Source: Luteibacter flocculans (GTDB taxonomy: Bacteria > Pseudomonadota > Gammaproteobacteria > Xanthomonadales > Rhodanobacteraceae). Taken from it: a DNA stretch of 64,000 nt. Below are positions 16,184-41,912 of the stretch, piece by piece; positions within the stretch are counted from its first letter, which is position 1, and each line of letters starts with the position of its first letter. The position numbers and the translations under genes are program-made. The notes under the pieces are model-generated. The model was not told where the DNA came from and searched no databases. It saw nothing but the letters and a program-made list of their open reading frames with translations. The stretch is taken from positions 2,400,001 to 2,464,000 of the forward strand of contig NZ_CP063231.1 in assembly GCF_023612255.1 (NCBI RefSeq), given 5' to 3'.

Positions 16184-17062
16184 TCAACCGCGACCTGCGC
16201 TCGAACGTTCGCGCCATCGCACGACGCGATACGCGGCGGGATCACCCGGGTCGTTCTTCAGGAAAAGCACGACGTCCAGCGTGACCGCCTGTCCGTCCTT
16301 CAAGGTCGCCGTGGCGACGATGTTGAAGGCCGCCACGGGACTGCGTGACGCATCGCCTGGCTTCGTGCCAGGCAACGGTGGAAGCAGAAGCACGCCCATG
16401 GGCGTACGGCTCACACGATCCACATAGGCACGCGCCGCTGCGGCGTCCGCGCCCGTCACCGCGGCGACGACGACAGGCGAGGCATAGGCAAGATTGGGCT
16501 GCTGGACGGTCCAAAGCGTCAACGCGGGCTCGATCCGGTCGACGATGTCGGAAGCGAGGCCCGGCACGCGGCGCAGTTCCTCAAGGCTCGTAAAGCCGCC
16601 TCGCAGCAGCAGCGCGGTGTCCTTGGCCTCGCCCGGGTCGCCCCACGCACCGATCGCCTTGGCCGCCGGGCCGATACGTTCTTCGTCGACGCCTGCGGCG
16701 CGCAGGAGATCGGTAATCTGCTCCGGCGTCGCCAGATTGAGATTGAGCTTCCCCTCTTCCGCCGACACGGACACCGACACCTCAGCATCGCCGACGCGCA
16801 TGGCGTGACTCTGCCAGTCGGGCTGCCAGCGTCGATCCCCATCGGCGTCACTCAGGTGAAAGACCGCCACGTCGATGCCCGCTTCGGCTGCATAGAAGGC
16901 CTGGGTACGCAGCGACTGTGTCCGCGCCTGCAGGCTCTCGATGCGCGCGTTGGTCGCCAATGCGCCCAGCGTGATCGCCGCGAGCGTGCAACCCCATAGC
17001 ACCACGAGCAAGGCGACACCGCGTTGCGCGGGTGCATGCCTCGCGAGCCCCACGACGTTCAT
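16184..17062 (-). CDS. gspK: Type II secretion minor pseudopilin GspK
   Basis: A 292-residue inner-membrane-inserted pseudopilin. With GspI and GspJ it forms the tip of the type II secretion pseudopilus. The start is the ATG at 17062 (MNVVGLARHA), placing the prepilin peptidase site in QRG-VALLVVLW. The residue at mature position 5 is Val instead of Glu, as is characteristic of GspK. The large globular domain (FYAAEAGIDVAVFHL, LNLNLATPEQ, LLRAAGV) matches the family. It overlaps gspJ by four bases (ATGA). No gspL, M or N follows. Confidence 0.9.
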   Translation of the reverse strand: MNVVGLARHAPAQRGVALLVVLWGCTLAAITLGALATNARIESLQARTQSLRTQAFYAAEAGIDVAVFHLSDADGDRRWQPDWQSHAMRVGDAEVSVSVSAEEGKLNLNLATPEQITDLLRAAGVDEERIGPAAKAIGAWGDPGEAKDTALLLRGGFTSLEELRRVPGLASDIVDRIEPALTLWTVQQPNLAYASPVVVAAVTGADAAAARAYVDRVSRTPMGVLLLPPLPGTKPGDASRSPVAAFNIVATATLKDGQAVTLDVVLFLKNDPGDPAAYRVVRWRERSSAGRG

Positions 17063-17718
17063 GGCTTGGCGAAGGTGGTCAATCGCGCCAACCCTTCGCG
17101 CCCATTGACCGCGCGCGGGTCCATGCGCAACGGCACGGCCAGCACCGGCCAGCGCACGCCGCCCTTGAGCACGAGTTCCACGCCGACCATCGTCGGCAAG
17201 CGCGTCGCGTACGGCCAGCGCTCCTGCCAACCCAACAGATGCCCTTGATCGTCCATGCCGTTGTAGACGAAACGTCCGGAGACCACGTCGGAGACCAGCG
17301 TCTCGGGATCGGCCGGCACGATCGGCGAGCCACCGCGCAACGCCAACGGTGCGAACGCCGCTTCGAGACGGCGCTGATCACCGTCACCGATGATCTGGAG
17401 CTTCTGCAATTGCAGGCCGCTCGCGGCGAGATATCCGGGGCCGGGGGCGACAAAGACCAATTCGCTCGCATCGCCCTGGAAGACGATCATGCTGCGGTCG
17501 TGCGCCAGACTCCACGGATAGGGCATCGCATTTGCCAGCGCATGACGGAGGTAGCCCTGCGCCGCACGCACCTCATCGAGCCGTTGGCTTCGCGCCATAC
17601 CGGCGCGTGTCGAACGGGTCAGCGTCTGCAATGCCGCCGTGACGCCGAGCAACAGCAACGCGAGCAAGGCCAGCGCTGCGATCGTCTCCATCAGGCTGAA
17701 GCCGCGAGATTTCTTCAT
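17059..17718 (-). CDS. gspJ: Type II secretion minor pseudopilin GspJ
   Basis: A 219-residue prepilin-like protein. The ATG at 17718 starts MKKSRG-FSLMET; prepilin peptidase would cut after that Gly, leaving Phe1 and the conserved Glu5. The hydrophobic helix AALALLALLLLGVTAAL follows. The mature domain has the GspJ length and the MIVFQGDASELVFVAPGPG strand. Together with GspI and GspK it should form the pseudopilus tip. It is coupled by four-base overlaps to both neighbours. Confidence 0.9.
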   Translation of the reverse strand: MKKSRGFSLMETIAALALLALLLLGVTAALQTLTRSTRAGMARSQRLDEVRAAQGYLRHALANAMPYPWSLAHDRSMIVFQGDASELVFVAPGPGYLAASGLQLQKLQIIGDGDQRRLEAAFAPLALRGGSPIVPADPETLVSDVVSGRFVYNGMDDQGHLLGWQERWPYATRLPTMVGVELVLKGGVRWPVLAVPLRMDPRAVNGREGLARLTTFAKP

Positions 17719-18143
17719 GCATCCCCCTGCACTGCCGGCGCCGGCGTGTCTGCGGGACGCGTCGAAACGGTGCGCAAGGTCACGAATCGCGCCGAGACCG
17801 GTTGACCACCTTCTTTCCACTCGACGGTAAGTTCCACGCGGTAGAGATGCAACGGCGTGGACGTACGTACCGCAGCTTCTTCGGGAGGCGAAGAAACCTG
17901 CATGGTCCAGTGATATTCGTCGTCGAAGTCGCCACGGTGGATTCCCTCCGTGGGAAAGTCAGCGACGAAAACCCGGTCGAGCAAACCACTGGCCCAGAGC
18001 GACGCCTGCGTATAGCCTTCCGAACGGAGGCCGAGGGCCATCGAGGCACCCGCCGCGTGCATCAGCGCACCGAAGCAGAGCGCCAACAGAAGCATCCCGG
18101 CGAGCGCTTCCAGCAGACTGAATCCCCGATCATTCCGTCGCAC
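17715..18143 (-). CDS. gspI: Type II secretion minor pseudopilin GspI
   Basis: A 142-residue pseudopilin. I choose the GTG at 18143 because GAGGAGG lies six bases upstream and the encoded N-terminus is the short basic leader VRRNDRG-FSLLEA with Phe1 and Glu5 at the prepilin cleavage site. The hydrophobic helix MLLLALCFGALMHAAG follows. The longer frame upstream is not needed. Assignment as GspI instead of GspH rests on its position directly before gspJ and on length. No major pseudopilin gspG precedes it; an intrinsic terminator does, so these three genes probably have their own promoter. Confidence 0.83.
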   Translation of the reverse strand: MRRNDRGFSLLEALAGMLLLALCFGALMHAAGASMALGLRSEGYTQASLWASGLLDRVFVADFPTEGIHRGDFDDEYHWTMQVSSPPEEAAVRTSTPLHLYRVELTVEWKEGGQPVSARFVTLRTVSTRPADTPAPAVQGDA

Positions 18144-18236
18144 GGCGTTCCTCCTCGTCGCTCGGAGCTTAGGCACGAGAGCATGTCGACTCGATGACGC
18201 GACGCCTGGTTTGCCGATACGGCGCATGCCTGCATG

Positions 18237-18266
18237 AAAAAAAGGAAGGGCTCGAAAGCCCCTCCT
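18237..18266 (-). terminator. Intrinsic terminator after the PstS-like gene
   Basis: Read on the minus strand, AGGAGGGGCT and AGCCCTTCCT form a ten-base-pair stem with one mismatch and a four-base loop, followed by seven T residues. It separates the PstS-like gene from gspI and should limit read-through into gspIJK. Confidence 0.85.
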
Positions 18267-18298
18267 CTGTTCTTCCGTGAATCGTTTGGTATGCGCTA

Positions 18299-19678
18299 TC
18301 AGCTCTTGATGCAGGTGCTGACCTTGGCCGACACCGTCGGGGTGACGGTGGCGAAGGCGTAGCCCGTGCCGGTACCGATGGTCGTCACGCCCGTGTGCGA
18401 ACCGTAGGCCGAACCGATGAGGCCCTGCACGGCAGCCGTATCGGCACCGTTACCGGTGTTGTTGGCGATCAGGTAGGACACGGCCACGATCGGGTAACGC
18501 GTGGTGCTGGTCGCGTAGGTCGACGGCTCGACGAGGTTCATGCAACCCGCCTGCACGATCGGCGAGAGCGTGCCGGTGACCGGACGGCCGTTGGAATCCA
18601 CACCCGTGATGCCGCGATCGTTGACCGTGGCGAGCGTGATGGCATTGGGCAGGTTGGAGAACGGGTCGAAACCGTTGACGGTGGCGTACGAGACCTGCGG
18701 GTTGGCAGCGGAGATGTTCTTGAAGTTCGCCGCTTCGGCGTAGCCGATGGAGCTGGCGTTCGACGCGACCGCAGCAACGACAGCCGGGTTGCCGCTGGCG
18801 CCGACGTAACGCGACGGCAGGCCGCTCGGGAAGAACAGGCTGTTGACGGTGGTGAAGGCCTGGTCGGCGATGAAGTGCGCGGAGCCGACGGCACCGCACA
18901 CGGCGGCCAGGTGGTTCGCCAGGGAGAACGTGGTGCCGCTGCCGTCCGAACGGAAGACGACCTTGAAGTCATCGCCCGACGAAGGAACCGGCAGGCCGAG
19001 CTGGCTGAACTTGGTCGCCTGGCCGTTGAACACCTGGCAGACCTGCGAGTCGGTGAGGTTCACCGGCGAGGTGATGGCGGAGTTGTTGATGACGATGGCG
19101 ATCGAACCCACCACGGCCGGGAACTGCACCGGCTGGGTGTACTTGGTGGCCTTGTTGCCCGGCGAAGTGAACCAGCCGAATTCCGTCTGCGACATCGGCG
19201 CATCGCTACCTGCGAAATGCGGATTGACCGTGGTGGACAGCGACGCACCGAATCCACCCTGCACCGGCGTGAAGGCGTTGCCGTTGCAGAAATCCGTGCC
19301 GCTCAGCGGGTGGGCAGTCGGCGACGCACCGTCGGTGTTGTCGAAGATCTTCTTGCCGTTGCCGCTACCGGTCTGGCAGTACGACACGTGGTTGCTCGAA
19401 GAGGCCGCCCAGGCACCGAACAGCGAGTTGGCGGCGACGCCAACCGGCGCGGGCGCCGACGGATCGAGGTTGTTGGTGGTGGCGTTCGTCGACAACTTCG
19501 CCGAGGGCGTGACGCCGTTGAAATTGAAGCCGACATAAGCACCGGCCGGCAGCGTGGCGCCGCCGCCAAAGACGTCCGTGCTCATCGCCGAGCCAGCAGC
19601 GGCGAAGCCGACGGCCAGCAGCACGGCACCCGCGATGATCTTCGTGCGGGTGTTCCCCATAACGTGACGCTTGTACAT
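18299..19678 (-). CDS. Exported PstS-like phosphate-binding family protein
   Basis: A 459-residue exported protein of the periplasmic-binding-protein fold related to PstS and DING/LapA-type proteins. The ATG at 19678 has AGGGG eight bases upstream; a signal peptide (IIAGAVLLAVGFAAAGSAMS) ends near residue 33. Family segments are DVFGGGATLPA at the mature N-terminus, FAGSDAPMS, VVFRSDGSGTTF (phosphate-site-like loop) and SSIGYAEAANF. Six cysteines, including one four residues from the C-terminus, fit an extracytoplasmic protein. There is no pstCAB nearby, so it is unlikely to be an ABC transporter subunit. Its place before gspIJK suggests a type II secretion substrate, as reported for some PstS-like proteins; this is inference. 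Confidence 0.83.
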   Translation of the reverse strand: MYKRHVMGNTRTKIIAGAVLLAVGFAAAGSAMSTDVFGGGATLPAGAYVGFNFNGVTPSAKLSTNATTNNLDPSAPAPVGVAANSLFGAWAASSSNHVSYCQTGSGNGKKIFDNTDGASPTAHPLSGTDFCNGNAFTPVQGGFGASLSTTVNPHFAGSDAPMSQTEFGWFTSPGNKATKYTQPVQFPAVVGSIAIVINNSAITSPVNLTDSQVCQVFNGQATKFSQLGLPVPSSGDDFKVVFRSDGSGTTFSLANHLAAVCGAVGSAHFIADQAFTTVNSLFFPSGLPSRYVGASGNPAVVAAVASNASSIGYAEAANFKNISAANPQVSYATVNGFDPFSNLPNAITLATVNDRGITGVDSNGRPVTGTLSPIVQAGCMNLVEPSTYATSTTRYPIVAVSYLIANNTGNGADTAAVQGLIGSAYGSHTGVTTIGTGTGYAFATVTPTVSAKVSTCIKS

Positions 19679-19757
19679 GGTGTTACCCCTAGTCGATAGA
19701 CCTCCATCTGGAGGCCAGACGACTATTCGCTTTTTTATTGTCCTGCGAATGACGTTT

Positions 19758-19775
19758 GCATGTCCTCGAACATGC
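19758..19775. promoter_or_regulatory. Inverted repeat upstream of the PstS-like gene
   Basis: A perfect palindrome GCATGT-N6-ACATGC lies 80-97 bp upstream of the PstS-like ATG, in the 220-bp gap after tpsA. Several further CATG-containing words surround it. It looks like an operator half-site pair. I could not match it to a known box, and it does not fit a Pho box. Confidence 0.4.
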
Positions 19776-19840
19776 CATCTACATGACGATCTTGACGTCG
19801 TGCCGCATTTGCTCATGCACATGACATGCATCGTGACAAA

Positions 19841-19859
19841 GCATCACAAAATGTGATGC
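19841..19859. promoter_or_regulatory. Inverted repeat GCATCACA-N3-TGTGATGC
   Basis: Perfect eight-base arms with a three-base spacer, 40 bp downstream of the tpsA stop and about 165 bp upstream of the PstS-like ATG. No T tract follows on either strand, so it is a poor terminator. It resembles a dimeric regulator site; the half-site order is opposite to the Clp/CRP consensus TGTGA-N6-TCACA. Confidence 0.4.
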
Positions 19860-19898
19860 GCGACGCACGATCCATGTGCATCGCGACACGGCACATCG

Positions 19899-22800
19899 TC
19901 ACTGCGTGAGTCGCGCTCGCTCTGCCGGCGTGAGCCGATCGTTGGCGCTGCCACGACGCATGACCTGCACAGGGCTCGACGGGTCATACGCGCCGTTGCG
20001 TGCCGAATCGACACTGGCGCTGGGATTGTCGCCAAGCACTTGTACCGAGATCACCGACGGCTGACGATCGCGCGCATCGGCCTGCTGTTGACGTGCGACG
20101 TCTTCCGCTGCCTTCGTCGCCGCGCTCGCTGCGGAACTGGCGGCGTTGAGTGCACCGACGTTCACGCTCTGCACCACCGGCAAACCCACGGCGTCGCCCT
20201 TCACCTGGACGTTGTCGGCATTGGCCACATGTGCGGCAGCGATGACGAGGTTGCCCGACACGCGGATGCCTGCGTCGCCCGCATCCACCGTACCGCGCGG
20301 CGCCATCAGATAGACCGCGCCTTCCGGCGCACCCGCAACCGTCTGCAAAGTGGCGATGCCGGCGCCACTCACCTGACCGGCGGGGTTCTGAAAACACCAG
20401 GCATCGGTCGTGCAGAGATAGCTCACCGGCGGAATTTCGCTGGTGGTCTTGGCACCCTTGCCGGCATTGATGTCGCCGTTGGAACTCCAGATCGTGACAT
20501 CGCCGCCCTGCTCCGTGAACACGCGGCTTTGCGCGAGTAACGTACTGCCGTCGGTGAACATGGAAATACCGCCTTGGCGCAAGGTGAGTACACCTTGCGT
20601 GTTGGGACCGTCGAGAACGTTGCCCGCGGAATCGGTCGCCGGAGGCGGCGCGGACGTGCCGCCGAGAAGCGCATCGCCACCGGGTCCGAGAATCGACACG
20701 TTGCCTCCGCGCTGGGTCTGGATCGTGCTGCCGCGCATGTCCAGGTCACCTGTCGATACCCGCGCCTGCGCACCGTTGCTTCCGCCATCGAGGCCGTTCG
20801 CCGTGTAACCGAGCGATGCCGGGAATAGCGTATTGATGGCGGCATAACCCCTTGCATACTGTCCCTTGAAGGGGCTGGCGTCGTCGTTATAGTCCTTACC
20901 CACCTGCGCGAGGATGCGGAACAGCGAGTCCTGGGTGAACAGGGCCTTGGCATCGTCTGGAAGCTGCTGGAGTCGTGCCCAGGCCTGTTCCACGGAATAG
21001 CTCGGCTTGACCGCGTCCGCGATCAGGCCGGTATCCAGGCCAAGGCCCGCGTCGTAGCTTTCGACAAATGCCACGAGCGAGGCAGCACCGTCGTCCAGTC
21101 CAGCAGGCCTGCTCGCGGTGGGGTCGACGTAAGTCGCGATGAACGCGGCCTGGTCGATACCGGGGCCGACGCCGAATGCGGCGTATATCGATGCGCCATC
21201 CGGCCCGAGGAACGGATTGAGCGTGTTGCCCGTCGAGTCGATTCCCGTCATGAACGACGGGGTACCCGGTTGCTGTAACGTCTTGTATGTCGCGGACCGT
21301 GTATTCGGAAGGGCATAGAACTCCGTCTGCGACGCAAAGCGGCCCAGGTCCCGCCCGGCTTCCACGCTGAGATATCCCGAACCGCCCTGCAGTATCACTG
21401 GCAGGATGGACCAGGGTTCCTCGACGCCGCCCGTCTGAAGGAACCTGACGGAGAGCGGCGTATCGTAGATGTCGCGACCCGCGCGGATCACGGAGATATC
21501 GGAGCCGTGTACCTGCTGCCCGACATACGCGAGGTCGACGATGTCCCTGCCCGCCTCGACTCGCGCCACCTTCGACGGCATCAGAAAGACACCGCCCATG
21601 CCGCCGCCCGTGCCGTTGAGGATGTCGCCATCGAGTGCGTACACGCGAACGGGGTCGGCATCGTTGGCATGCCATGGCGTGGGTGCATGCAGGAACTGCT
21701 GATCGGCCAGCGTGCCGAACAATGCATCGGCCAGATAGCCTTGCTGACGCACGCGCGTCGCAGGCGATCCATCGCTCAGCGTCAACGGATCGAGGTAGAG
21801 CGGCGATGGCAGCGACGAGAGCGGCGCGTCGATCTGGCCCCACACGAATCGGCTGCCGGTATCCCCGCCTGCCGGCATGTCGAAGCGCACGGAATCGCGG
21901 GCCAACAGCGTGAGGTTGCCGTCGGCCGAGGGGAACAGTTCGCCGGCCGCGCGCAGGTCGAGGTTGCCGTTGGCGGCCACCAGGCTCACTGTCGCAGGCA
22001 GAATGTCGCCCGCGGACTCGACAGGTACGTCGGCGGTCAGGCCCGGCGTGAACAACGTCAGCGGCGACACGAGGTCGCCATAGGTCAGATCTCCCGCAAA
22101 CGCGGTAACCGACAACCGTGAGCGCGTCGAATACGACTGGCCGTCCGCATGTCCCGTGGGCGCCAGGGCGTCGACGCCACCGTCGTCGAGCCAGGACGGG
22201 TTGAACACGCCGCCCAGTGACACCGACCCGCCCGCCGCAACGTCCACGCGCGCATCCTGCATCGCGATCAGCGTGGAAACCGGCATCGTGCTTTCCTTGC
22301 CGGCGGCTGTCGTGTACGGCACGGAGAAGTCGGCACCGATGCTTCCGCCCGCGCGGATGTCGCCGTCACCCTTGGCGACGAAGTAGCTGCCGCTGAGGAT
22401 GTCGCCGCCCGCGGCAACCGAAAGATCGCCGCCACCGATCGTTCGCAGCGTACGGTCCCCGGAGGCGTCGCTGGTGATCGTCCAGGTGGTGGGCAGCGAC
22501 ACCGAGAGCTGCCGTACGTCACCGCCCGCGGATACGTTCACGTCACCACCGACGCTCATCACACCCTGGTCGAAACTGCCGAAATTGATCGACGAGCGGT
22601 CCGCGGTGTTGTTGACCTGCATCCACTGCCACCAGTACTGCGCGGTGGATGTCCCTGCCGTGCCGGTGATGTCTCCGGTCTCGTCGACCGTATTCTGCAG
22701 GGCTACGATGTCGCCGCCCGCATGCAGCGAGACGTGGCCGCCCTGGTCGGGATTCACCGCGCCGTTGACGACCATTTCCGGCGCCGCCGATGTGACCAGC

Positions 22801-25800
22801 CCATCGATCTGCGATGGCCGTAGCAGGTTCACGCCCGCATCGGTCGCCGTACCGTCGGCAGGTGCACCCGCGGCATAGATCGCCGCGGGTGCACGATCGT
22901 CGGTCCAGCGAATGTCGCCGGAGGCGGCGATGTCGATATCGCCTGTGCCGGTACGCACCAGCGTCGGTGCCACGATGACCCGGCCGGTCGCGGTGTCGGT
23001 GAACTCCGTGTGGCCTCCGAGCATCACGTCCCCGGTGTGCGACGGCGCCAGGGCCAACGGATCGACGGAGAGCGTGTCGGCCCCCGCGACGAAGCGATAC
23101 GAACTGCTGTTTCCACCGGCCAGCGTGGCGCTCAACAGAGGTAACGGATTCTTCGTCACCGCCAGCGGAGACGGGCTGTTGTCGACGGGCGCGCTGCGGT
23201 CGATCGCATCGAGTGTGGTCGGTGGCGCGAGCAGCGGCTGCATCACGTCAGGCACCGAGAGCGTATCGACGAAGCCGGTCAACGCGATCGACTGGTTGAG
23301 GTAGTCGGGATACGCGGCGAGATACGGCAGGTACTGGTTGAGGTTGGTCGGCGTGGGTAGCGGCGCTGGCGCGTCGGGCACCGACATGACGAAACCGAAA
23401 CCGAGGCCATAGGTGATCGCGTCTACCGGACGATAACCGGGCGCCCCCGGAAGTTCGGACAACAGATACGCGGTATAGGCCACGTATTCGGTGTAGTAAT
23501 CGTTGATCGCGACCGGATCGCCACTGGTGAATTCGGTGGGCGCACTGAACAGGTTGGGGAATCCGTCCACGCCAAGGCCCGTATCCAACAGGGCCTGCCA
23601 GCCGGCGCTCGCTTCTTCCCACGTAGTCGGCACCGGCGGACCGCCTGCCGAACCACCTGCGTTACCGAGTTGCAGGAAGCCGTCCGTCACGCTGGCGCGT
23701 ATGTCGAGATCGTGGGCCGCGCGCAAGGTGAGGATCGGCGCTTCGGTCGCCGTACCGTAGCGGAACACCGGATGCAGGTTGCCATCCGTATCGCGCGTGG
23801 CGGCACCGAGGTTCCAGTTGGTCAGGATCGAGATGTCGCCGCCGTCGATCGCCGTGCCGCTGTTGCGCAATTCGATGCCCGGCCTGACGTGGAAGTTGGG
23901 CAGGCCGGCAAAACGCGAGTCGAAAACGAAGCCCGGTGCCTGCACGAAGTGCATGAGCGTACCGGCGCCTTGCGACGGGTCGCCGTTGACGTAGCCGTAG
24001 AAGGTGGCATGCCCAGCGTTGGCCGCGCTGGGCGTGAAGCGATAGCGCGCGAGATAGTCCCGCACCTGCGCGTCGTTGGACATATCCGGTCCGGGCATCA
24101 CATTGCCCGCGTCGTCGCTGAAGGTGCCCGCAACCAGCACGGGGCGCCCCGTCGTCGGATCGGCCTGGAACCACCCCGCCGCGTCGATCATGCCGTCGAA
24201 GTGCTTCGACGGATCGGCCGAGGCATCGGACGTGTCCCACACCGCATAGGCTTCCAGGGTGGTCGAGGCCGTATGTGACAGGTCGACGCTCGGCGCGATG
24301 CTGACTGGCACGTCGCCATCGGCCAGCAGCGGCACGCGGAGATGCAGTTCGCCTGCGCCCGCATCGCCGCCCTGGATCACGCGGGCCTGGGCGCCCAGGC
24401 GAATATGACCTGCATCGCCAGTCTGCACCACCTGGTAGCCATAGGTGGGATCGAGCGTGCCGTCCGTGACGCCCGAGGTTCCGAGCGTGATGTCGCCGCC
24501 GCGATGGCCTGCCGAGGAGGCGCTGGTATCGAGGCGCCCGTCGATATCGACGCCCTTGGCACCGAACAGGTCGATCGTGCCGCCGAACGTCCCCGAGCCA
24601 TCGATCGCGCCCGCCACGGACACGTCGCCACCGTCTGCCGTCAAGTGGACGAGATGCGCGTGCAAGGTGTCGCCTGCCGCCAGCGACAGGTCGCCCTGAC
24701 GGGTGTGCACGCTCAACGAGCCATCGAAGCCCCCGGCCGTCGCGCGCGACGCAAGGCTGCCGAGATCGAAGGCCGAGAACGTATCCACGGCGAGCGTGCC
24801 GCCCAGGTAACCGTCGGCCGCCGTGCCCAGTAGACGACCCAATACGGTCGCGGCGCCTGCGCCGGCTGTGACACGAACGGTGCCGGCATTGCCGCCGTCG
24901 CTTGCGCCGCTGACGTCAACGGTCGTGCCTTGCGCGAGCAGAATGCCACCGGCATCGGCCGTCAATTGCACGGTGCCACCCGGTACGCGTACCGCCGTAT
25001 CGTTGAAGGGCAGCGACAGTCCCGATGCATCGATCGACGCACCGTCGCCGACCGTGACGTCGCCCGTCGTCGCATGCAGACGAACAGTGCCGCCATGCGA
25101 GACGAGTTCGGTGTTCCATGCCAGCGAACCGGCCTGGATATCGAAAGTGCCTCCTACCGTGGTGGCGGCCGCTCCATCGGCCTGCCCACCGCGCGTCAAC
25201 TGCGCTGCGCCTGTGGTGACAAGGCGAACGTCAGCGCCATTGTCGACGCTGACGCGCGGCGTGGTGAGGGTGAGATCGGCGTCGGCCAGATCGAGCGTCC
25301 CCTTGCCCGAGAGGATGGTCCCCGTGGTCGCATCGACGTCCAGCCTGGACAGTCCATGAGTCGCGATGTTGCCGTCGCCCCACTGGAAGCGATTCGTCTC
25401 GACGCGCAAGGCACCGTCGCCCGCCGCCGCGCGCGTCGTGGATGCGCCGGTGTCGTTTTCCAGCGTCAGTGAGCGCGCCGCGAGCGACGCCTGGCCGCCA
25501 TCGCTGTTCAATCCGGGCGTGCTGAGGATGAGATCGTTGGCGACACGGAGTGAGGCGTCACCGAGCAGATCGATGGACTGGCGCGCCCGCAGCGTCGTCG
25601 ATTCACTGTTGGCGAACTGCGCGAGAACGCGCGGACCGATGAGCAGCGTACCTGCGCTCGACGTGCTGTCACCGTTGTCGCCAGCGAGTGCGATACGCCC
25701 CGCGGTGATATCGATGTCCGTCGCCCGCAGCGTCGCGTCTGCCGCCAGCTGCGTCTGCCCGGTGGCATCCATGCTGAGCGATCCCGCGGCATCGATGATC

Positions 25801-31976: not shown

Positions 31977-32034
31977 GGCTGACCTCGGAAAACGGAATGT
32001 CGCGGCGCGGCGCCGCGTTGTGTTGCATCGGCGA

Positions 32035-33255: not shown

Positions 33256-33264
33256 GTCGCCTCC

Positions 33265-34971: not shown

Positions 34972-35027
34972 GCGAACTCTCCGGTATCCAAGGTCTTGGC
35001 GTTCGTGGAAGCGTGGGTGGACGGCGC

Positions 35028-35705
35028 TCATGCGGGTCGTTTCCCGCGGATGGCGACGCGCAAGGGGAAATGCAGGGATACTGGCGGTGCTACGTCGATC
35101 CGCGGCATCGCGCGCAACGCGTCGAGCAGCGCCGCGTCGTTCTGAGCATTGCCGGTGGAGCCGACCAGCTCCGCGCGGGTCAGTTGGCCCGAGGCGTCGA
35201 GCCAGATGTCGGCGCGCACGTCGAAGACAAGCCGATTGACGCGGTCGTCGCGCTGCATCGCTTGCTGGATGGCGTAACCGAGATACTGGTCGTAGCTACC
35301 CATGCCAGTGCCTGTACCGCCATTGGCACCTACCATGCCGCTGCCATCGCCCGCGCCGATGTTGAAGGCGTCGCCGCCCGCCTGCGCGTCGGCGTTCATC
35401 GTCAACTGCTTCGCGACGTCGTTGCTCGGCTTCGGCGCATCGACGGGCTTCTGCGGCACCTCCGTCGGTTTTTCGTCGACCGGCTTCGGTTCGTCGGTCT
35501 TCTTCGGCTCGGGCGGCTTTTCCTTCGGCGGTGGAGGCGGCGGAGGCAGCGGAGTGATCGTCGCGATGCGCGGCGCTTCCCGACGCACACCGACGCGGCT
35601 GCTGGAGAAGTGCCAGATCGCCACGCCCAGCAACAGCAGTGCGACGACGCCGACCGCCTTGCCCAACCAGCGTGGGGTGCCCTGACGGGGTCCGTTGCGG
35701 CTCAC
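35028..35705 (-). CDS. tonB: TonB-family energy transducer
   Basis: A 225-residue protein with one N-terminal membrane anchor (VGVVALLLLGVAIW, residues 18-31), a Pro/Lys-rich periplasmic spacer (PPPPPPPKEKPPEPKK onwards, residues 50-95), a Gly-rich stretch, and a TonB C-terminal domain (residues 140-225) with FDVRADIWLDASGQLTRAEL and SLHFPLRVAI. It should couple the ExbB-ExbD motor to an outer-membrane partner. It lies 4 bp after exbD and overlaps a possible porin start. No TonB-dependent receptor is encoded in the window, so the partner may be TpsB, the porin or an outside receptor. Confidence 0.9.
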   Translation of the reverse strand: MSRNGPRQGTPRWLGKAVGVVALLLLGVAIWHFSSSRVGVRREAPRIATITPLPPPPPPPKEKPPEPKKTDEPKPVDEKPTEVPQKPVDAPKPSNDVAKQLTMNADAQAGGDAFNIGAGDGSGMVGANGGTGTGMGSYDQYLGYAIQQAMQRDDRVNRLVFDVRADIWLDASGQLTRAELVGSTGNAQNDAALLDALRAMPRIDVAPPVSLHFPLRVAIRGKRPA

Positions 35706-35709
35706 GCGA

Positions 35710-36117
35710 TCAGTCCTTGGGTGCCTTGCCGGTGACCAGGCCGACCTGCGGCAGGTCCACCCGGCGCAGCAGGTCGAGAATGTCCATCACCTTCTGGTAC
35801 TGAACCGTCGAATCGCCCTTCACCACGACAGGGAAATCGGGATTCAGCGCCTTCAGCGAGCGCAGCCGGTCTTCCAGTTCGGCGAGCGTCACCGGATAGG
35901 CGTCCAGATAGATCTGGCCCGTCTCCGAGACGGTGATCGCCTTGGTCTGCGGCTTGGCCATGCTGACCGCCGCGCTCGCCTTGGGCAGGTTCACCTTGAT
36001 GCCCTGCACCGATGCGGTGGTCATGATGATGAAGATGACGAGCAACACGTACGCCAGGTCGAGCATCGGCGTGATGTTGATGTCGTCGTACGGCTTGTCG
36101 TCGTCCTGGGCGCGCAT
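35710..36117 (-). CDS. exbD: ExbD/TolR-family biopolymer transport protein
   Basis: A 135-residue protein with a short cytoplasmic N-terminus, one membrane helix carrying the conserved proton-path Asp (TPMLDLAYVLLVIFIIMTT, Asp20) and a periplasmic domain ending in KVMDILDLLRRV. It should form the motor stator with the ExbB protein encoded 10 bp upstream and energise the TonB encoded 4 bp downstream. Confidence 0.93.
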   Translation of the reverse strand: MRAQDDDKPYDDINITPMLDLAYVLLVIFIIMTTASVQGIKVNLPKASAAVSMAKPQTKAITVSETGQIYLDAYPVTLAELEDRLRSLKALNPDFPVVVKGDSTVQYQKVMDILDLLRRVDLPQVGLVTGKAPKD

Positions 36118-36127
36118 GATCCGGACC

Positions 36128-37903
36128 TCAGGCCGCGACGGCCGACGGATGCACGACGCGCTGCTGCTCAGCCAGGCGCGTCACGAACTCGTCGACGAAC
36201 ACCTGCATGTTCGCCGTGACGTTCTTGTTCCGGATCAGCAGGTAGTTGTAGCCGAACAATGCGGGGATCGCGACGAAGAGGCCGGCCACCGTGGCAAGCA
36301 GTGCCGCCGCGATACCGGGAGCGATGGCGTTGACGTTCACGTCGCCTGCGGCAGCAATCGCCGCGAAGGTGATCATCACGCCCACCACCGTGCCGAGCAG
36401 TCCAAGGAAGGGGCCGCCGGAGATCGCGATCGTCAGCATCACCATCGACTTCGCCAGGCTCTGGTTCTCGCGCACCAGCGTGGCGTCCATGGTGGCGCGG
36501 ATGGCCTCGATCGATTCGGAGGCGATGTGATCGTGCCCGTCTTCGTCGCGGCGGCTCCACACTTCGGCAGCGCCTACCTTGTACAGGCGATACAGCGACG
36601 AATCAGACAGGCGCGACGCGGTGGGGTCACGCGACAACGCGAGGATGTTGCGCCCCTGCTGACGGAACGCCTCGAGGAAATCGTCGTTGGCACGGCTGAC
36701 GCGATTGACGTACGACGCACGCTGCCACATGACCACCCAGGACAACGCAGCCATCGCGAGCAGGATGCCGATCACGACCCACGCGTCCACGGTCACCGAC
36801 TTCACGATAATGCCGAAGTAACCGAAGCCGATGCCGGCCTGCTTTTCATCGGCCCCATAAGCGAGCAGCTTGGATTCGGCGCCCTGCGACTGCGCGTCCA
36901 CGGCGATGAGCGCTGCCGGGCGCGCGACGCGCGACACCCGCACTTCGTCGACCAGGCCGGTAAATGGCACCACGCCATCGGCCTGCGCGTTACCGTCGCC
37001 GCCGACCGTCGCCTCGCTGGTCAGCGCCGGCAGTTTCGCATCGAGCGTCGCATACGGCCGACCATCGACATATAGCTGGATGGCGGCGCCGCTGGCGACG
37101 ACGGCGAGATGGGTCCATGCGCCCGCCTTGATCGGCTCTCCGGCCGCGCTGGTGGCGTCGTCCAGTTGGACGAAGGGCACGCCATTGTCGAGCCCGACGA
37201 GCAGCTTCCGATCGCCTTGATGGCGGGCATACACGACCGTGCGCCCGGCCGGCATCGGATCGGGCTTGATCCACGCGCTGAAGGTGAAGCTGCCGCCCTC
37301 GGCGACGTTCATCGAGACACCGCCAGGCAGCGTCATGAAGGTCGTGCCATCCAGGCGCGCCGCCTTGCCGATGACCCCGTCTACCGTCGGGACAGCGTTG
37401 CCGATGGCATTGTTGCCGTATGCGGTCGCATCATGCGGCGGCGTACCGGCAGCATCCTCGAAATGATAGACGGCGGCGTAGTCCGCATCGAACACCGCGC
37501 CCGTCTTCTCGGCGCCCTGCGCCTTCGGATTGCCGTAGTACATCCATATCTGCTGCTGACTGTCGGCAGCCAGTTGCGGCACGTCGACCCAGACCAGCCC
37601 CACGCCGAGCACCGGATCGAAGCTTTCGATCTGGTAGTTCAGCGGCGTCTTGTCGTCGGCGGCCACGAAGCGCACATCGGCGCCGCTCTCCGACACGCCA
37701 TCGAAGGTGAAGTTGCCCGAATGCAGGCGGACGAGCAGCGGCACGCGCCCCACGGCTGTGGCGACGTTGCCGCCCTTGGCCGTCGTATCGAGGGTGATGG
37801 CCTTGCGGAAGGCGAAGTCCTGGTTCCACCAGGAGCCTTCGGCATGGGCCGCCGGGATCCCGCCGAGGATCAACAAGCAGGTCAGGAACAAGAATCGAGT
37901 CAC
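36128..37903 (-). CDS. ExbB/MotA/TolQ proton-channel protein with N-terminal DUF2341- and LamG-like domains
   Basis: A 591-residue fusion. The GTG at 37903 is preceded by AGGGG at good spacing and gives a signal peptide FLFLTCLLILGGIPAAHA (residues 4-21). Residues 25-145 are DUF2341-like (WWNQDFAFRKAITLD, QIWMYYGNP). Residues 150-335 are a LamG/concanavalin-type fold (GTTFMTLPGG, FTFSAWIKPD, WTHLAVVASG, LYVDGRPYATLD, GLVDEVRVS). The first membrane helix is near 383-405. The ExbB part ends the protein, with SGGPFLGLLGTVVGVMITF and LLATVAGLFVAIPALFGYN. Ordinary ExbB is about 240 residues without the large exported head. The head may bind a carbohydrate or a surface polymer. Confidence 0.9.
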   Translation of the reverse strand: MTRFLFLTCLLILGGIPAAHAEGSWWNQDFAFRKAITLDTTAKGGNVATAVGRVPLLVRLHSGNFTFDGVSESGADVRFVAADDKTPLNYQIESFDPVLGVGLVWVDVPQLAADSQQQIWMYYGNPKAQGAEKTGAVFDADYAAVYHFEDAAGTPPHDATAYGNNAIGNAVPTVDGVIGKAARLDGTTFMTLPGGVSMNVAEGGSFTFSAWIKPDPMPAGRTVVYARHQGDRKLLVGLDNGVPFVQLDDATSAAGEPIKAGAWTHLAVVASGAAIQLYVDGRPYATLDAKLPALTSEATVGGDGNAQADGVVPFTGLVDEVRVSRVARPAALIAVDAQSQGAESKLLAYGADEKQAGIGFGYFGIIVKSVTVDAWVVIGILLAMAALSWVVMWQRASYVNRVSRANDDFLEAFRQQGRNILALSRDPTASRLSDSSLYRLYKVGAAEVWSRRDEDGHDHIASESIEAIRATMDATLVRENQSLAKSMVMLTIAISGGPFLGLLGTVVGVMITFAAIAAAGDVNVNAIAPGIAAALLATVAGLFVAIPALFGYNYLLIRNKNVTANMQVFVDEFVTRLAEQQRVVHPSAVAA

Positions 37904-37940
37904 GGTGATACCCCTGGATGGTTGCGCTCGGACCGGGCGG

Positions 37941-39545
37941 TCAGAGATCCGCCTTGAGTGAGAAATGGATGCGCGTGTCGTGCGCGCGTGTCGCCTGCCC
38001 GTCCTTGAAGGGATAGGCGAGTTCGAACGCGCCCGTCGCGACGTTGAAGATCTGGAAGCGCGTACCGAAGCCCGCGCTGGAAAGGTTGTAGCTGCTGACA
38101 CGGGTGCTACCGGCCGCTGGATTGGCGGGATCGATGAGGCTGGGCAGTGCGTTCATCAGCACGAGATGTGCAGCGTCGACGAAAGCGTGGAAGCGCCAGT
38201 CGTTCACCCAATGACCGATGTGCGAGGCGATGGAAGGCGTGCGCAGTTCGATGGAACCGGTGACGCCGTGGTCGGCGGTCTGTTCGGCTTCCAGATAACC
38301 GCGCACGCTGCTTTCGCCACCCGCGGCGTACTGCTCGCTGGAGATCAGCGACGAGTTGGAAAGCTGGCCGCCTAGCCGTCCCGCCAGACTGAAGCCGTTG
38401 TCGAACTGGCGCGTCCGCCCGCCATCGACCTTCACGTAGAAGAAGTTCGCCCGCGCCTTGTAGCGTTGGTTGTCGAACTCGGCCGCGTCGCTTCCGCCTG
38501 CACGGAACCCCAGCGTGCCGCTGATGGCGATCGTGCTGATCGAGCGCTCGCCGGTCGATTGACCCTGGTAAGTCACGTTGAGCGGGATATAGGTAATCGG
38601 CGCCTTGGACGTCTGCCCTGCCAGGCTGATGTTCTGGTCGAAATGTTTACGGGTCAGCCCCATCGACAAGGACTGCGAATACTCGGCGTGCGTGGGCAGC
38701 GTGCGGATGAAGCTGAAGCCGAACGCATTGCCCTTGCCTAGCACCGTGGTACCGCCCACCGCGTTGGCGTTGCTGTTCGAGCGGTAACCGGACGTGAGCA
38801 CGCTCCAGTCGCTCGACAGCGGCACCATGTACGAGCCTGCCCAGACCTCGGCCGCGTTGCGATCCTGCGGCGCCACGATGTAGGTCAGCGATGCCGACTG
38901 ACCATCCTGGAACAGGTTGTCGTCGCGCACGCTCGCTACGGTGCGCAACTCGGGCGTATTCACGCTGTGGTCGTTGTTGACTTCGAGGCTGGCGTGGAGC
39001 GGCGAACTGTCGGTGACCTTCAGCGTCACGTCCATGGTCTGCGGCAGCTTGCCCGGCGCGAGTACCGGCACTACCTGGGCGCCGCTGCGGCGGTTCACGT
39101 CGGTGAGCTGCTGCTGCGCGTCCACGAAGTTCGGCACCTCGCCCTCGCGCAGCGCAGGGACGGCGTCGCGGATGTCCTTGGGCGAGTGGTAGGCGGACCC
39201 TTCGACGCGTACTCGGCCGATGGCGTTCTCCGTCACCTGAAAGCGGATGATGCCGCCCTTTACCTGCTGCGGCGGAAGATCGACGACGACCGACTGATAC
39301 CCGTGCGCCTGATAGGTCTTCTGCAAGGCATCGCGCGCGGCACTCACGTCGTTCATCGACTTGCCGGGGCCGAGAAAGGGATACACCGCCGTCTCGATGT
39401 CCAGCGGCTGCAACGTCGTGTTGCCGTCCACCACGTACTCGTTCACGTCGAACGCCGCGGGCGCGTCCTGGGCGCCAGCGCCAGTGGAAAGTGCACATGC
39501 GACAGCCAGCGCGAGCGCGCGCCGCAAGGCAGCGATACGCGTCAT
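37941..39545 (-). CDS. Two-partner secretion pore, ShlB/FhaC/HecB family (TpsB)
   Basis: A 534-residue outer-membrane translocator for TpsA. The signal peptide ends at ALSTGAGAQ (about residue 25). A POTRA pair spans residues 30-190 (FDVNEYVVDGNTTL, KGGIIRFQVTENAIGRVRVEG). A 16-strand Omp85-type barrel follows, with the lid-lock motif VRGY in GGESSVRGYLEAE, and ends FSLKADL. Usual family length is 550-590 residues. It is encoded first in the structural part of the block, directly before the Ton motor genes (37-bp gap) and 7.6 kb before tpsA. FhaC-type pores are not known to need the Ton system. Confidence 0.92.
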   Translation of the reverse strand: MTRIAALRRALALAVACALSTGAGAQDAPAAFDVNEYVVDGNTTLQPLDIETAVYPFLGPGKSMNDVSAARDALQKTYQAHGYQSVVVDLPPQQVKGGIIRFQVTENAIGRVRVEGSAYHSPKDIRDAVPALREGEVPNFVDAQQQLTDVNRRSGAQVVPVLAPGKLPQTMDVTLKVTDSSPLHASLEVNNDHSVNTPELRTVASVRDDNLFQDGQSASLTYIVAPQDRNAAEVWAGSYMVPLSSDWSVLTSGYRSNSNANAVGGTTVLGKGNAFGFSFIRTLPTHAEYSQSLSMGLTRKHFDQNISLAGQTSKAPITYIPLNVTYQGQSTGERSISTIAISGTLGFRAGGSDAAEFDNQRYKARANFFYVKVDGGRTRQFDNGFSLAGRLGGQLSNSSLISSEQYAAGGESSVRGYLEAEQTADHGVTGSIELRTPSIASHIGHWVNDWRFHAFVDAAHLVLMNALPSLIDPANPAAGSTRVSSYNLSSAGFGTRFQIFNVATGAFELAYPFKDGQATRAHDTRIHFSLKADL

Positions 39546-39676
39546 GCGCTCACCTCGATGGATCGTCTAGCCACGCCGAACTTCCCCTGTCGTTCCGTTT
39601 AACAGAAGACGCGCGGGGCGCCGCGCCACTGAACCACTGTCACTAAAAATTCATCGAATCCGTTCGGCCGACAAAC

Positions 39677-40663
39677 TCAGCTCAGCAAGACCCAGCCACC
39701 CGGTAGATGCGTGGCGTGTGCGCCGTAGGCGTCCTGGATCAGCGTCGCCACGTCGGCCATCTGGTCCAGGGTGAAACGTGCATGCACGCGACGCGCGCCG
39801 AGCGTGCGATCGGTGATGACGATGCGCCCGGGACGGTAGCGATTGATGTCCGCGACAACGTCGGCAAGCGGCTGGTTGTCGTAGATCAGCACCTTGTTCC
39901 GCCAGGACAGCGCGGTGTCGGGATTGACCGCAGTGGGGGCACTGACGCCACGGGCGTCGAAGGCCACCTGCTGCGACGGCTTGACCACCACATCGCTCGC
40001 ACCGACGGAGAGCCGGGTTTCCCCATCGAGGCAGGTGACCGCCGCTTCGTCGTCGATGCAACGGATCGCGAAGGATGTACCTGGCGCGGAGACAATCCGT
40101 CCCTCGGCAAGCTCCACCACGAACGGTGAGGTACGCGACGCGTCGATCCGCACCACGGCCTCACCGCTGTGCAGACGAAGATGCGCGCCGCGGGCATCGC
40201 CGCCACGCAGACCGATATCCGACGACGTGTTCATATCGACGACGACGCCCGGTGCCACGCTGACACTGCGCTGCTCACCGACCGCCGTACGCCACCGCGA
40301 CGCATCGCGATCCGCACCTAGGTCAAGGCCCAGGTCGAGCCCGTAGCGGCCGACAAACACCGCGGCCACCGAGGCACTGACTGCGGCGGCGAGGAACGCG
40401 CGGCGATTCATGCGTATGCCGTGCCGTGGCGGAACCCGCGCCGTGCGCCGTGCGTTTTCTTCATGCATCGCGATGGCGGGCCCAAGGGCTTCCCACATCT
40501 GCCGGGTCCGGGCGAAGGCCTCAGCGTGCTGGGCGCTCGACAGGCACCAGCGACGGAACGCCTCGCCGTCCTCGCGCGTGGCCGCGCCCGAGGTCAAATG
40601 GACGAGCCATGCCCTCGCCTGTCGCTCGCTTTCCTGGATGCCGGTGCTTCCCATATCGTTCAA
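39677..40663 (-). CDS. fecR: FecR-type anti-sigma/sigma-regulator protein
   Basis: A 328-residue membrane protein. The cytoplasmic N-terminus (ERQARAWLVHLTSGAAT, residues 12-30, with W19) is the DUF4880 region that contacts FecI. A single membrane helix (AFLAAAVSASVAAVFVG) is at residues 89-105. The periplasmic FecR domain has VGEQRSVSVAPGVVVDMNTSS, LHSGEAVVRI and VSAPGTSFAIRC. The C-terminus (VLIYDNQPLADVVADINRY) is the STN-like part that receives the signal. Its start overlaps the sigma gene stop by four bases. A 131-bp gap separates it from tpsB. Confidence 0.92.
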   Translation of the reverse strand: MNDMGSTGIQESERQARAWLVHLTSGAATREDGEAFRRWCLSSAQHAEAFARTRQMWEALGPAIAMHEENARRTARVPPRHGIRMNRRAFLAAAVSASVAAVFVGRYGLDLGLDLGADRDASRWRTAVGEQRSVSVAPGVVVDMNTSSDIGLRGGDARGAHLRLHSGEAVVRIDASRTSPFVVELAEGRIVSAPGTSFAIRCIDDEAAVTCLDGETRLSVGASDVVVKPSQQVAFDARGVSAPTAVNPDTALSWRNKVLIYDNQPLADVVADINRYRPGRIVITDRTLGARRVHARFTLDQMADVATLIQDAYGAHATHLPGGWVLLS

Positions 40664-41196
40664 GACGATTCCCCGGCGCCCGGACCGAACCGCTGGATCG
40701 ACTGTCGTCCCACTTTTGTGGCGCAGGTCTCAAGTGCCTTCTTCAGCTCCTTGCCCACCATGCGCACGGAGATGCCGTGCCGGGCCGCGATATCGGCTTG
40801 CGGAAGTTCGTCCACGCGCGCGGCAATGAGAATGTCCCGCTGGCGGCGGGTCAAGGCGGACAATGCATCGCTCAGCGCAGCAAGATCCTGCCGCGAGGAC
40901 AGCACCGTGGGCGGATCGAGGCTGTCGCCTGCGCCATGAATGAGTTCATCGATCTCTTCGCCGGTCAACAGGCGGCGCGAGGCACGATGCTGGTCCGTTG
41001 CCATGTTCAGCGCCATGCGGAACAGGTAGCCCATCGGCTGGACGGCGCGATCGCTGGCGGCGTCCAGCCGCTCCACCTTGAGATAGGTTTCCTGCAGCGC
41101 GTCATCGACGAGATCGTCGGACGGCAAGCGACGGCGCAGACGCCGACGGAAGTCCTCGTAGTTATCGACGAACAGCCCGAGCAGCGACGTGTCCAT
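40660..41196 (-). CDS. fecI: FecI-type ECF sigma factor
   Basis: A 178-residue extracytoplasmic-function sigma factor. The ATG at 41196 (MDTSLLGLFVDN) follows the STN gene stop by two bases and has GGGAG upstream; the longer open frame is rejected. Region 2 is DDLVDDALQETYLKVERL and region 4 is LTRRQRDILIAARVDELPQADIAARHG, with a SVRMVGKELKKAL recognition helix. It should direct transcription of target genes when FecR relays the surface signal. The adjoining secretion genes are the likely targets, but I could not identify its promoter motif. Confidence 0.92.
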   Translation of the reverse strand: MDTSLLGLFVDNYEDFRRRLRRRLPSDDLVDDALQETYLKVERLDAASDRAVQPMGYLFRMALNMATDQHRASRRLLTGEEIDELIHGAGDSLDPPTVLSSRQDLAALSDALSALTRRQRDILIAARVDELPQADIAARHGISVRMVGKELKKALETCATKVGRQSIQRFGPGAGESS

Positions 41197-41198
41197 GC

Positions 41199-41912
41199 CT
41201 AGCTCTCCCACACGGGCGATCCGCGGCAGGGATCGGCACCGTTGAGCGAAGGCCGCAACAGGATCGTCATGGGACTGAAACGGTGGAACGCCGCGTCGAG
41301 GTGCAAGGCACGCAAGGTGGACAGCACACGATCGTCGCGTGTCGGATCGTCGGACGGGGTAAGAGCGACGGCATCCGCGACCTGCCCTGCCGGATCGATC
41401 CAGACCTGCATGGCGAGTCGATAATGACCGGGACGGGTGGAAGCACGTGCGCAAAGCGCACGCTCGATGGCCTCCTGCACGGCAGCGGCAACGCGATCGT
41501 CCGGCAACGCACCGTCGGCAGCGGACGGCACGGCATCCGCAGGCAAGGCGTCGGAGGCACTATGGATCGCTGTGACCGTGAACGCATTCATGGATGAAAA
41601 GTGCGCGGTGAGACCGCTGTCGGCGAGTAACAGGCGCAACGCGTCGCGCGGTTCGAGCAGCGCGTGGACTGCCGACGAGCGACGTCCCGAGGCAAGGTCG
41701 TCGTCGAACAGAACGGCAATGCCGGCCGTCTCACTGAACGAGCGCAGCGCGTCGGGCAGGGCTTGTGCATCGATGTCGAAGCGCATTGGCGCATGCGTGT
41801 CTTCCGATCCCTGCGAGGTCCCCATCGACGTCAAGGCCCGTGCCATCAGCCCGGTTGGCGCGAGCAGGACCATGCACGCGACGAGCGCGAGGACGCTGCG
41901 TGCCACGATCAT
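41199..41912 (-). CDS. Stand-alone STN-domain protein with TonB-C-like C-terminus
   Basis: A 237-residue exported protein. The signal peptide is SVLALVACMVLLAPTGLMA (residues 6-24). Residues 42-115 are an STN (secretin/TonB N-terminus) domain: FDIDAQALPDALRSFSETAGIAVLFDDDL, then RRSSAVHALLEPRDALRLLL. The C-terminal part (VAAAVQEAIERAL, MQVWIDPAGQVADAVAL) resembles a TonB C-terminal domain and also the TonB encoded at 35028. In classical signalling the STN domain is fused to a TonB-dependent receptor; here it is not. It is first in the FecI-FecR group and is the probable signal donor to FecR. Confidence 0.82.
   Translation of the reverse strand: MIVARSVLALVACMVLLAPTGLMARALTSMGTSQGSEDTHAPMRFDIDAQALPDALRSFSETAGIAVLFDDDLASGRRSSAVHALLEPRDALRLLLADSGLTAHFSSMNAFTVTAIHSASDALPADAVPSAADGALPDDRVAAAVQEAIERALCARASTRPGHYRLAMQVWIDPAGQVADAVALTPSDDPTRDDRVLSTLRALHLDAAFHRFSPMTILLRPSLNGADPCRGSPVWES

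Follow-up and report, generated by a model that had tools for sequence, protein, structure and literature searches.

The closest described relative of the genes considered here is the PUMA3 (Vre/Pdt) locus of Pseudomonas aeruginosa. It comprises VreA, a protein with an STN domain and a TolA/TonB-like C-terminus but no barrel, together with VreI and VreR, and the genes under its control lie mostly just downstream, among them the hxc type II secretion system (T2SS), a two-partner secretion (TPS) pair, exbBD and PA0696 (PMC2729926). The locus is under phosphate control via PhoB, with pho boxes at vreA, pdtA and phdA; sigma-VreI and PhoB control it, PdtA and PdtB form a functional pair, and neither virulence nor the in vitro activation of sigma-VreI requires VreA (PMC7035377, PMC4971064). 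The genes exbB2-exbD2-tonB4 were in 2020 still termed an uncharacterised putative TonB system (PMC7035377). We report here a computational analysis of a block of genes in Luteibacter flocculans (contig NZ_CP063231.1, positions 2,400,001 to 2,464,000, a stretch of 64,000 nucleotides hereafter called the window). Because its gene set and VreA architecture agree with the published descriptions of that locus, the block is best read as belonging to the Vre/Pdt (PUMA3) type, here represented in Luteibacter. The type itself is already known; what is new here is a tighter definition of its core.

On the minus strand the block runs gspD, a vreA-like gene, an extracytoplasmic function (ECF) sigma factor gene, a FecR-like gene, tpsB, a gene for a DUF2341-LamG-ExbB protein, exbD, tonB, a Porin_5 gene, a coiled-coil protein gene, tpsA, a PstS-like gene, gspI, gspJ and gspK. 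Genes were assigned by Pfam scans of open reading frames (ORFs), plus NCBIfam for the T2SS genes. An original prediction, made from the sequence alone, had listed the genes from the STN gene to tpsA, then the PstS-like gene and gspIJK, as co-oriented, with a FecI/FecR-type pair at the head of the block; the domain scans recovered the listed genes, all on the minus strand, and the pair (sigma-70 r2/r4; DUF4880 plus FecR). It had also placed the Ton genes directly between pore and substrate genes, where ExbB, ExbD and TonB are indeed encoded, but the Porin_5 and coiled-coil genes intervene as well. The surface signal that it proposed as the trigger is partly borne out: a FecI/FecR-type switch is present, whereas in P. 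aeruginosa the input is phosphate limitation via PhoB and VreA can be dispensed with. Its statement that no experimental account of the combined system was known does not hold, as the combination has been described in P. aeruginosa (Llamas 2009, PMC2729926; 2016, PMC4971064; 2020, PMC7035377).

Luteibacter and P. aeruginosa share the barrel-less receptor with STN and TonB-type C-terminal domains, the ECF sigma factor beside a FecR-like regulator, the TPS pair, the order ExbB-ExbD-TonB followed by a putative porin (PA0696) and a further gene (PA0697), and the presence of T2SS genes near by; candidate pho-box-type promoters, recognised in Luteibacter from sequence, may be a further common trait. 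They differ in that tpsA ends the Luteibacter block but precedes tpsB in P. aeruginosa, that only gspD, gspI, gspJ and gspK stand against a full Hxc system, and that Luteibacter has a PstS-like gene where P. aeruginosa has lapA; among the Luteibacter block ORFs scanned, none matched phdA, PpiC or YbjN by Pfam. Like FecI-FecR-FecA signalling, the block has an ECF sigma factor, a FecR-like anti-sigma factor and an STN domain, but it lacks a TonB-dependent transducer barrel, and its STN protein ends in a TonB-like domain. The exoprotein carries a TPS domain and the transporter a POTRA_2/ShlB match, as in two-partner (type Vb) secretion, and TpsB matches the FhaC and CdiB structures; unlike canonical TPS systems (FhaB/FhaC, CdiA/CdiB), the Luteibacter one has a DUF3739 C-terminus, a dedicated Ton motor and a porin. 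The HxuCBA haem-capture system of Haemophilus influenzae also ties a TPS pair to a Ton-dependent function, but it is a three-gene operon with a TonB-dependent transporter, HxuC, where Luteibacter has motor plus porin (PMC5422565). Among the top-ranked results of a largely open-access literature search there was no account of a task for exbB2-exbD2-tonB4 or of Ton-dependent TPS export, and the term DUF3739 was absent from the full texts searched. No Pseudomonas name occurs among 49 VreA-homologue proteins, nor among 120 of 766 ExbB matches listed for a query from a class genome with P. aeruginosa-like gene order.

Conserved linkage of the core genes

We collected 76 related loci by a protein scan with ExbB, with flanks of at most 10 kb, so that a missing vreAIR or tpsA is uninformative there. 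The loci span Luteibacter, Dyella, Rhodanobacter, Pinirhizobacter, Burkholderia, Paraburkholderia, Caballeronia, Trinickia, Pararobbsia, Caulobacter and a few other Alphaproteobacteria; within Luteibacter, the window ExbB is 82-85% identical to its relatives. TpsB, ExbB, ExbD, TonB, Porin_5 and the coiled-coil protein are encoded in the same order on one strand in 74 of the 76 loci, the motor genes directly following tpsB; the exceptions are a 5.8-kb contig (L034) and a Sphingomonadales metagenome-assembled genome (MAG; L068). DUF3739 was found in all 16 genomes checked, which represent 16 of the 76 loci. In 15 of these genomes it shares a contig with ExbB, at a distance of 5-19 kb; the sixteenth is the Sphingomonadales MAG. 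Within this set, tpsA follows the block in Luteibacter, Dyella and Caulobacter and precedes tpsB in the Burkholderiaceae. The whole Luteibacter genome has one DUF3739 protein, one DUF2341 protein, three POTRA_2 matches and three secretins. Caulobacter genome G014 holds three DUF3739 proteins, and within the host family DUF3739 is patchy (11 of 59 genomes).

Co-occurrence was then assessed in 229 genomes drawn evenly across the host class, whose relatedness makes the p values nominal. DUF3739 was detected in 16 of them (15 over cut-off) and DUF2341 in 21. Full-length Porin_5 (all above 460 bits) is present in 16 genomes, namely the 15 with DUF3739 over cut-off and G120, which carries it on one contig with DUF2341; the remaining Porin_5 matches are partial and below 120 bits. 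Full-length Porin_5 thus occurs in 15/15 DUF3739 genomes vs 1/214 others (Fisher p 1.3e-22), and DUF2341 in 14/15 vs 7/214 (Fisher p 2e-16), although the DUF2341 of G117 sits in a 1632-aa frame and is perhaps not ExbB. By coordinates, DUF2341 is within 24 kb of DUF3739 on the same contig in 13 of the 15 genomes; the other two are G117, with DUF3739 at a contig end, and G216, which is 64% complete and has no DUF2341 match. POTRA_2 matches were obtained in 136 genomes, some of them in BamA-sized frames; they are over cut-off in 113, and TPS-type transporters are therefore not generally bound to the DUF3739, porin and motor set.

The corresponding stretches of 11 of the 14 other DUF3739 genomes (G086, G117 and G216 being left out) were searched with hidden Markov models (HMMs) built from the 76 loci, which were also used on those loci. 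ExbB-ExbD-TonB-Porin_5-coiled-coil occurs in order in 10 of the 11. TpsB is near the core in nine (eight by the locus HMMs, G152 by a POTRA_2 scan), and about 15 kb away in G052; G237, where the contig breaks off within TpsA, gave no TpsB match.

The core of this type of locus is therefore made up of TpsA, TpsB, the ExbB-ExbD-TonB motor, Porin_5 and the coiled-coil protein. A neighbourhood search was the check proposed with the original prediction, and its outcome, the TPS pair, motor, porin and coiled-coil gene linked across genomes, together with the class-wide co-occurrence, supports the view that the joint function of Ton genes and TPS pair was not read from an accident of one genome. It could be argued that the Ton and T2SS genes are merely stable neighbours and do not act together, and the T2SS and PstS-like genes do vary among relatives. 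For the core this explanation is disfavoured, and we consider it very improbable: DUF3739, porin and motor co-occur across an evenly drawn class sample, which led us to reject a chance neighbourhood, and a promoter-like element is shared (see below).

Some genomes of the sample have a second ExbB-sized DUF2341 protein (G135:C3:154263, G152:C1:2983279, G166:C3:171325). That of G135 is adjoined by ExbD and TonB, about 23 kb from the main set, and a TonB match lies near that of G152.

Export pore, VreA-like protein and promoter-like elements

In the window TpsB, POTRA1 starts about 6-7 residues past the likely signal peptide, a stretch that, in contrast to canonical TPS transporters, could hardly hold both a plug helix and a linker at the N-terminus. 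The distance is at most 10 residues in 62 of 85 TpsB proteins, by a crude rule biased to short values. In FhaC the plug helix (H1) is dispensable and a 30-residue linker is needed (PMC5422565); with such a short N-terminus, the TpsB group described here may thus be gated differently. One explanation would be that the Ton motor opens TpsB, or releases the very long TpsA, replacing the canonical plug-and-linker cycle. The near absence of residues before POTRA1, set beside the linker that FhaC needs, the position of the motor genes directly after tpsB and the length of most TpsA frames (3.4-5.1 thousand residues) are consistent with it. However, H1 is not essential in FhaC, the N-termini of some relatives are longer and of low complexity (a crude estimate), the constant presence of a special porin would be left unexplained, and type V translocation, two-partner secretion included, is held to run without ATP, an ion gradient or any other energy source (PMC5422565). 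We regard Ton-powered export as rather unlikely. A C-terminal cysteine hook in TpsA was rejected, the two cysteines near DUF3739 not being conserved at 60% (35 sequences).

The window TonB has a proline-rich spacer and a C-terminal domain, with ExbB and ExbD encoded alongside, as expected of a Ton system. When VreA and TonB profiles of these loci were compared, 90 C-terminal columns aligned (probability 97.6, E 2.8e-12). The VreA profile was then used to search the 229 class genomes (E up to 1e-12, at most 10 candidates scored per genome). Full-length VreA was found among them only in the Luteibacter genome; in 12 others its C-terminal half matches the cluster TonB, which adjoins the porin in 11 and ExbD in G026, and seven further genomes match by the STN half only. 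VreA thus looks like an STN domain joined to a C-terminal domain of this TonB kind, a kinship that appears closer than the TolA-like relation reported in 2009, and the likeness suggests that VreA may contact the same partner as TonB. Both results would fit a signalling device in which VreA competes with TonB for an outer-membrane partner and reports its state to VreR. We consider this explanation quite unlikely, since VreA is dispensable in P. aeruginosa and genomes that gave no VreAIR match still keep the motor set. Pfam detected no TonB-dependent receptor or plug domain among the block ORFs scanned; a probable TonB-dependent receptor is encoded elsewhere in the Luteibacter genome (STN match at 4132437), not linked to the block.

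Upstream regions of vreA-like genes were scored for a two-repeat pho-box-like site 85-130 bases upstream, a position window chosen after the first scoring, with consensus letters that we take to be those of the pho box. Of 39 regions, 17 contain such a site, against 0.08 on average and 2 at most in shuffles; the best is that of L002, with two perfect CTGTCAT repeats. The region before tpsB contains an element, TGAA-n-TTTT-n-GTGACA followed after 1-2 bases by GGTTCAGT and then GTCT, the first part of which resembles a pho box on the reverse strand. A pattern drawn from the sites has 52 matches, before tpsB in all 32 Rhodanobacteraceae-type loci and also before tpsA in 20; it has none in the 44 other loci and none elsewhere in the 76, and a reversed control gave no matches. 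All 52 sites share a distance of 17 between GTTCAGT and GTC, with 15-17 allowed. The 32 loci were chosen by record name (Luteibacter, Dyella, Rhodanobacter, Pinirhizobacter and one MAG named no further than Lysobacterales). A 26-base form with up to three mismatches has a single match in the Luteibacter genome, at 39628-39653, whereas a short form with three mismatches shows no excess in the window (2 found vs 4.1 expected), so the longer form alone is informative.

If a suitable transcription start is assumed, the box and the -35 and -10 elements agree approximately, in position, with those mapped in the pdtA promoter (PMC4971064). Dyella has two copies of the element, before tpsB and tpsA, paralleling the two P. 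aeruginosa promoters, and Luteibacter has one; its tpsA is therefore probably read through from tpsB. A related TTTT-n-GTGACA element, by a pattern set post hoc, lies on the other strand before a divergent pseudopilin-type operon in 20 of the 76 loci, all Burkholderia or Paraburkholderia by name (e.g. L049 at about 7648, minus strand), hinting that the T2SS-like genes of those loci may share the phosphate switch. The Luteibacter block itself is probably switched on by phosphate shortage.

Feature coordinates and variable neighbours

The features of the block are collected in Table 1. The STN match of the vreA-like protein, at 25.6 bits, is under the Pfam cut-off of 28.4. The gap between the coiled-coil gene (orf208) and tpsA is about 0.57 kb and holds a small ORF at 32035-32526 without Pfam match; gspD and the vreA-like gene are 567 bases apart.

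Table 1. Features of the Vre/Pdt-type block, in window coordinates
Feature	Coordinates	Strand	Basis and remarks
gspD, T2SS secretin	42479-44848	-	Secretin/Secretin_N; NCBIfam GspD above cut-off
Candidate pho box upstream of vreA-like gene	42006-42023	-	Starts 111 nt before start codon
vreA-like: signal peptide, STN, TonB-type C-terminal domain, no barrel	41199-41912	-	Pfam, profile comparison
vreI-like ECF (FecI-type) sigma factor	40660-41196	-	Sigma-70 r2/r4; ORF 40660-41454, start 41196 inferred
vreR-like anti-sigma	39677-40663	-	DUF4880 + FecR
Pho-box-like element and GGTTCAGT / CGTCT promoter-like element before tpsB	39606-39653	-	Conserved in Rhodanobacteraceae-type loci
TpsB, Omp85-type transporter	37941-39545	-	POTRA_2/ShlB
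ExbB fused to DUF2341 and LamG-like domains	36128-38101	-	DUF2341 + Laminin_G_3 + MotA_ExbB in one ORF; start probably ~37.9 kb
ExbD	35710-36117	-	Pfam ExbD
TonB-like energy transducer	35028-35705	-	TonB_2 weak, 16.9 bits vs cut-off 22
Porin_5 outer-membrane protein, PA0696-like by position	33265-35031	-	586 bits; start probably 34971
Coiled-coil protein, PA0697-like by position	32629-33255	-	Likely signal peptide, conserved C-terminal part
TpsA exoprotein, 4054-aa ORF: signal peptide, TPS, C-terminal DUF3739	19899-32063	-	TPS 77.9 bits, DUF3739 119.5 bits
PstS-like binding protein, variable neighbour	18299-19831	-	PBP_like_2
GspI-like pseudopilin, variable neighbour	17715-18227	-	N_methyl; GspI name from position; homologues found
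GspJ-like pseudopilin, variable neighbour	17059-17820	-	N_methyl; below NCBIfam cut-offs
GspK-like pseudopilin, variable neighbour	16184-17230	-	No Pfam match; NCBIfam T2SS_GspK below cut-off

T2SS genes flank the block on both sides, gspD upstream and gspI, gspJ and gspK downstream, and they are, as at the P. aeruginosa locus, frequent but variable companions of the core; the original prediction, which counted the pseudopilins with the block, was right that far, since T2SS genes recur as neighbours across relatives. Among 11 Luteibacter loci, 8 have the secretin gene in this position; L004 is truncated, and the flanks of L009 and L010 show none. Four of the 16 genomes (L078, L079, L080, L084) have gspI-J-K after tpsA, and a GspK-type gene was picked up by probes in the flank of 33 of 38 Burkholderiaceae loci. 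T2SS E and F genes adjoin the block in Caulobacter L091, F, E and D do so in Paraburkholderia L086 and, by probes and partly by Pfam, in three of the 11 distant genomes (G037, G123, G135), and weak GspD matches were obtained in L086, L104, L105 and L118. One-sequence probes gave no match to PstS, GspI, GspJ or GspK in the stretches of the 11 distant genomes. Published loci homologous to PUMA3 likewise differ in T2SS content (PMC2729926).

A full private T2SS in the window was rejected: no ATPase gene and no GspE match were found, and only D, I, J and K were recognised. A fuller T2SS with its own ATPase is encoded elsewhere in the Luteibacter genome, at about 3.85-3.86 Mb, and a T2SS-type ATPase lies at 0.23 Mb without recognised further T2SS genes, its neighbours not having been domain-scanned. 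The block pseudopilins may perhaps serve secretion of the PstS-like protein, and the gspD and gspI-J-K genes could possibly supply an interchangeable secretin and tip that serve a different substrate, for instance that protein.

The PstS-like gene, found near tpsA in 11 of the 16 genomes, bears on a further explanation of the whole block. The giant surface TpsA would capture a ligand, probably a phosphorus source, which Porin_5, energised or gated by the Ton motor, would import. The arrangement would resemble that of HxuA/HxuB/HxuC, and the PstS-like protein would be an additional binder. The pho-box-like control elements agree with this reading, as do the confinement of full-length Porin_5, with one exception, to DUF3739 genomes in the class sample and the HxuCBA precedent of a TPS pair serving Ton-dependent uptake (PMC5422565). 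Against it stand the lack of any TonB-dependent receptor or plug domain among the block ORFs scanned and the negative PstS probe in the 11 distant genomes, made with one sequence; moreover, Porin_5 matched no solved structure by sequence. We hold capture and uptake to be possible, though less likely than not.

Several further genes were noted around these loci. After gspK, a beta-propeller (YNCE-like) gene lies at 14937-16037, and L078 and L082 have a relative of it close to their PstS-like gene. Seen genome-wide, the gspD (42479-44848) and gspI-J-K genes around the block are an additional T2SS-type secretin and second gspI-J-K set, noted together with the genome positions 3.707 and 3.850 Mb. 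In the same genome a gene for a 2318-aa YadA-type trimeric adhesin is directly upstream of a T2SS ATPase gene (L099:7762-14715). In three distant class genomes, T2SS E and D genes adjoin the Ton-TPS block (L104:7927-15804, L105:3003-9676 and L118:6448-11142), with F by Pfam in two of them; a thioredoxin-fold (DsbA/DsbC-like) gene accompanies them in L104 and L118. In Paraburkholderia L023:15579-19960 the block continues with a PpiC-type isomerase and a DegP-like PDZ protease, plausibly a periplasmic chaperone and protease for the exoprotein, and in Burkholderia multivorans a DUF4915 protein is encoded right after tpsA (L074:1202-2353).

Proposed mechanism and its bearing on type V secretion

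Gene content, order, conservation, the co-occurrence of DUF3739, porin and motor, the promoter-like element and the VreA-TonB homology, all observed here, point to the following reading of the Vre/Pdt-type locus, which we consider probable as a whole. Phosphate limitation would activate the vreA-vreI-vreR operon via PhoB, and sigma-VreI and PhoB would then read a single dedicated promoter before tpsB, yielding TpsB, ExbB, ExbD, TonB, Porin_5 and the coiled-coil protein, and TpsA by read-through. TpsA would be exported through TpsB, and its C-terminal DUF3739 would dock it on TpsB and Porin_5, which would together form an outer-membrane complex. The private Ton motor would act on this complex, the energised step being export, docking or uptake. 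Control by PhoB and sigma-VreI and the functional PdtA/PdtB pair have been shown for P. aeruginosa; the same control in Luteibacter, the docking of DUF3739 on porin and TpsB, the action of the motor there and the direction of the energised step are what we infer.

A number of observations weigh against this reading. The stretches of the 11 distant class genomes gave no vreA, vreI or vreR match, and phosphate control is therefore not general. In G026 the genes lie within about 31 kb but are rearranged, and in the Sphingomonadales MAG ExbB-ExbD-TonB (L068) are on a different contig from TpsB, porin, coiled-coil protein and TpsA (L095). Neither TpsB nor Porin_5 showed an evident TonB box, no formal test for one having been made. 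The box in the tpsB gap reaches a plain consensus score of 15.6, between the 95% (14.7) and 99% (15.9) levels of the background, and the tpsA gap has no pho box by the same score (12.8; background mean 12.5). The promoter and pho-box criteria were fixed after the sites had been seen, in related loci, and the likeness to the P. aeruginosa locus is one to published descriptions of it. Finally, P. aeruginosa insertion mutants in tpsA, tpsB, tonB and PA0696 keep VreI-induced zebrafish lethality (PMC2729926), although this virulence result is uninformative on TpsA export.

A bolder form of the Vre/Pdt-type reading, possible but somewhat doubtful in our view, is that DUF3739 exoproteins form a distinct TPS class, in which TpsA, TpsB, porin, coiled-coil protein and private motor would work as one surface machine powered by the proton motive force, with VreA as a TonB look-alike that reads the state of the machine. 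If true, this would be, going by one review (PMC5422565), the first demonstration that a type V system draws on cellular energy. With a class of exoproteins almost always accompanied by a Ton motor and porin of their own, the assumption of energy-free TPS becomes testable; the linkage would give a task to exbB2-exbD2-tonB4, and Luteibacter and Dyella offer environmental hosts in which to test it.

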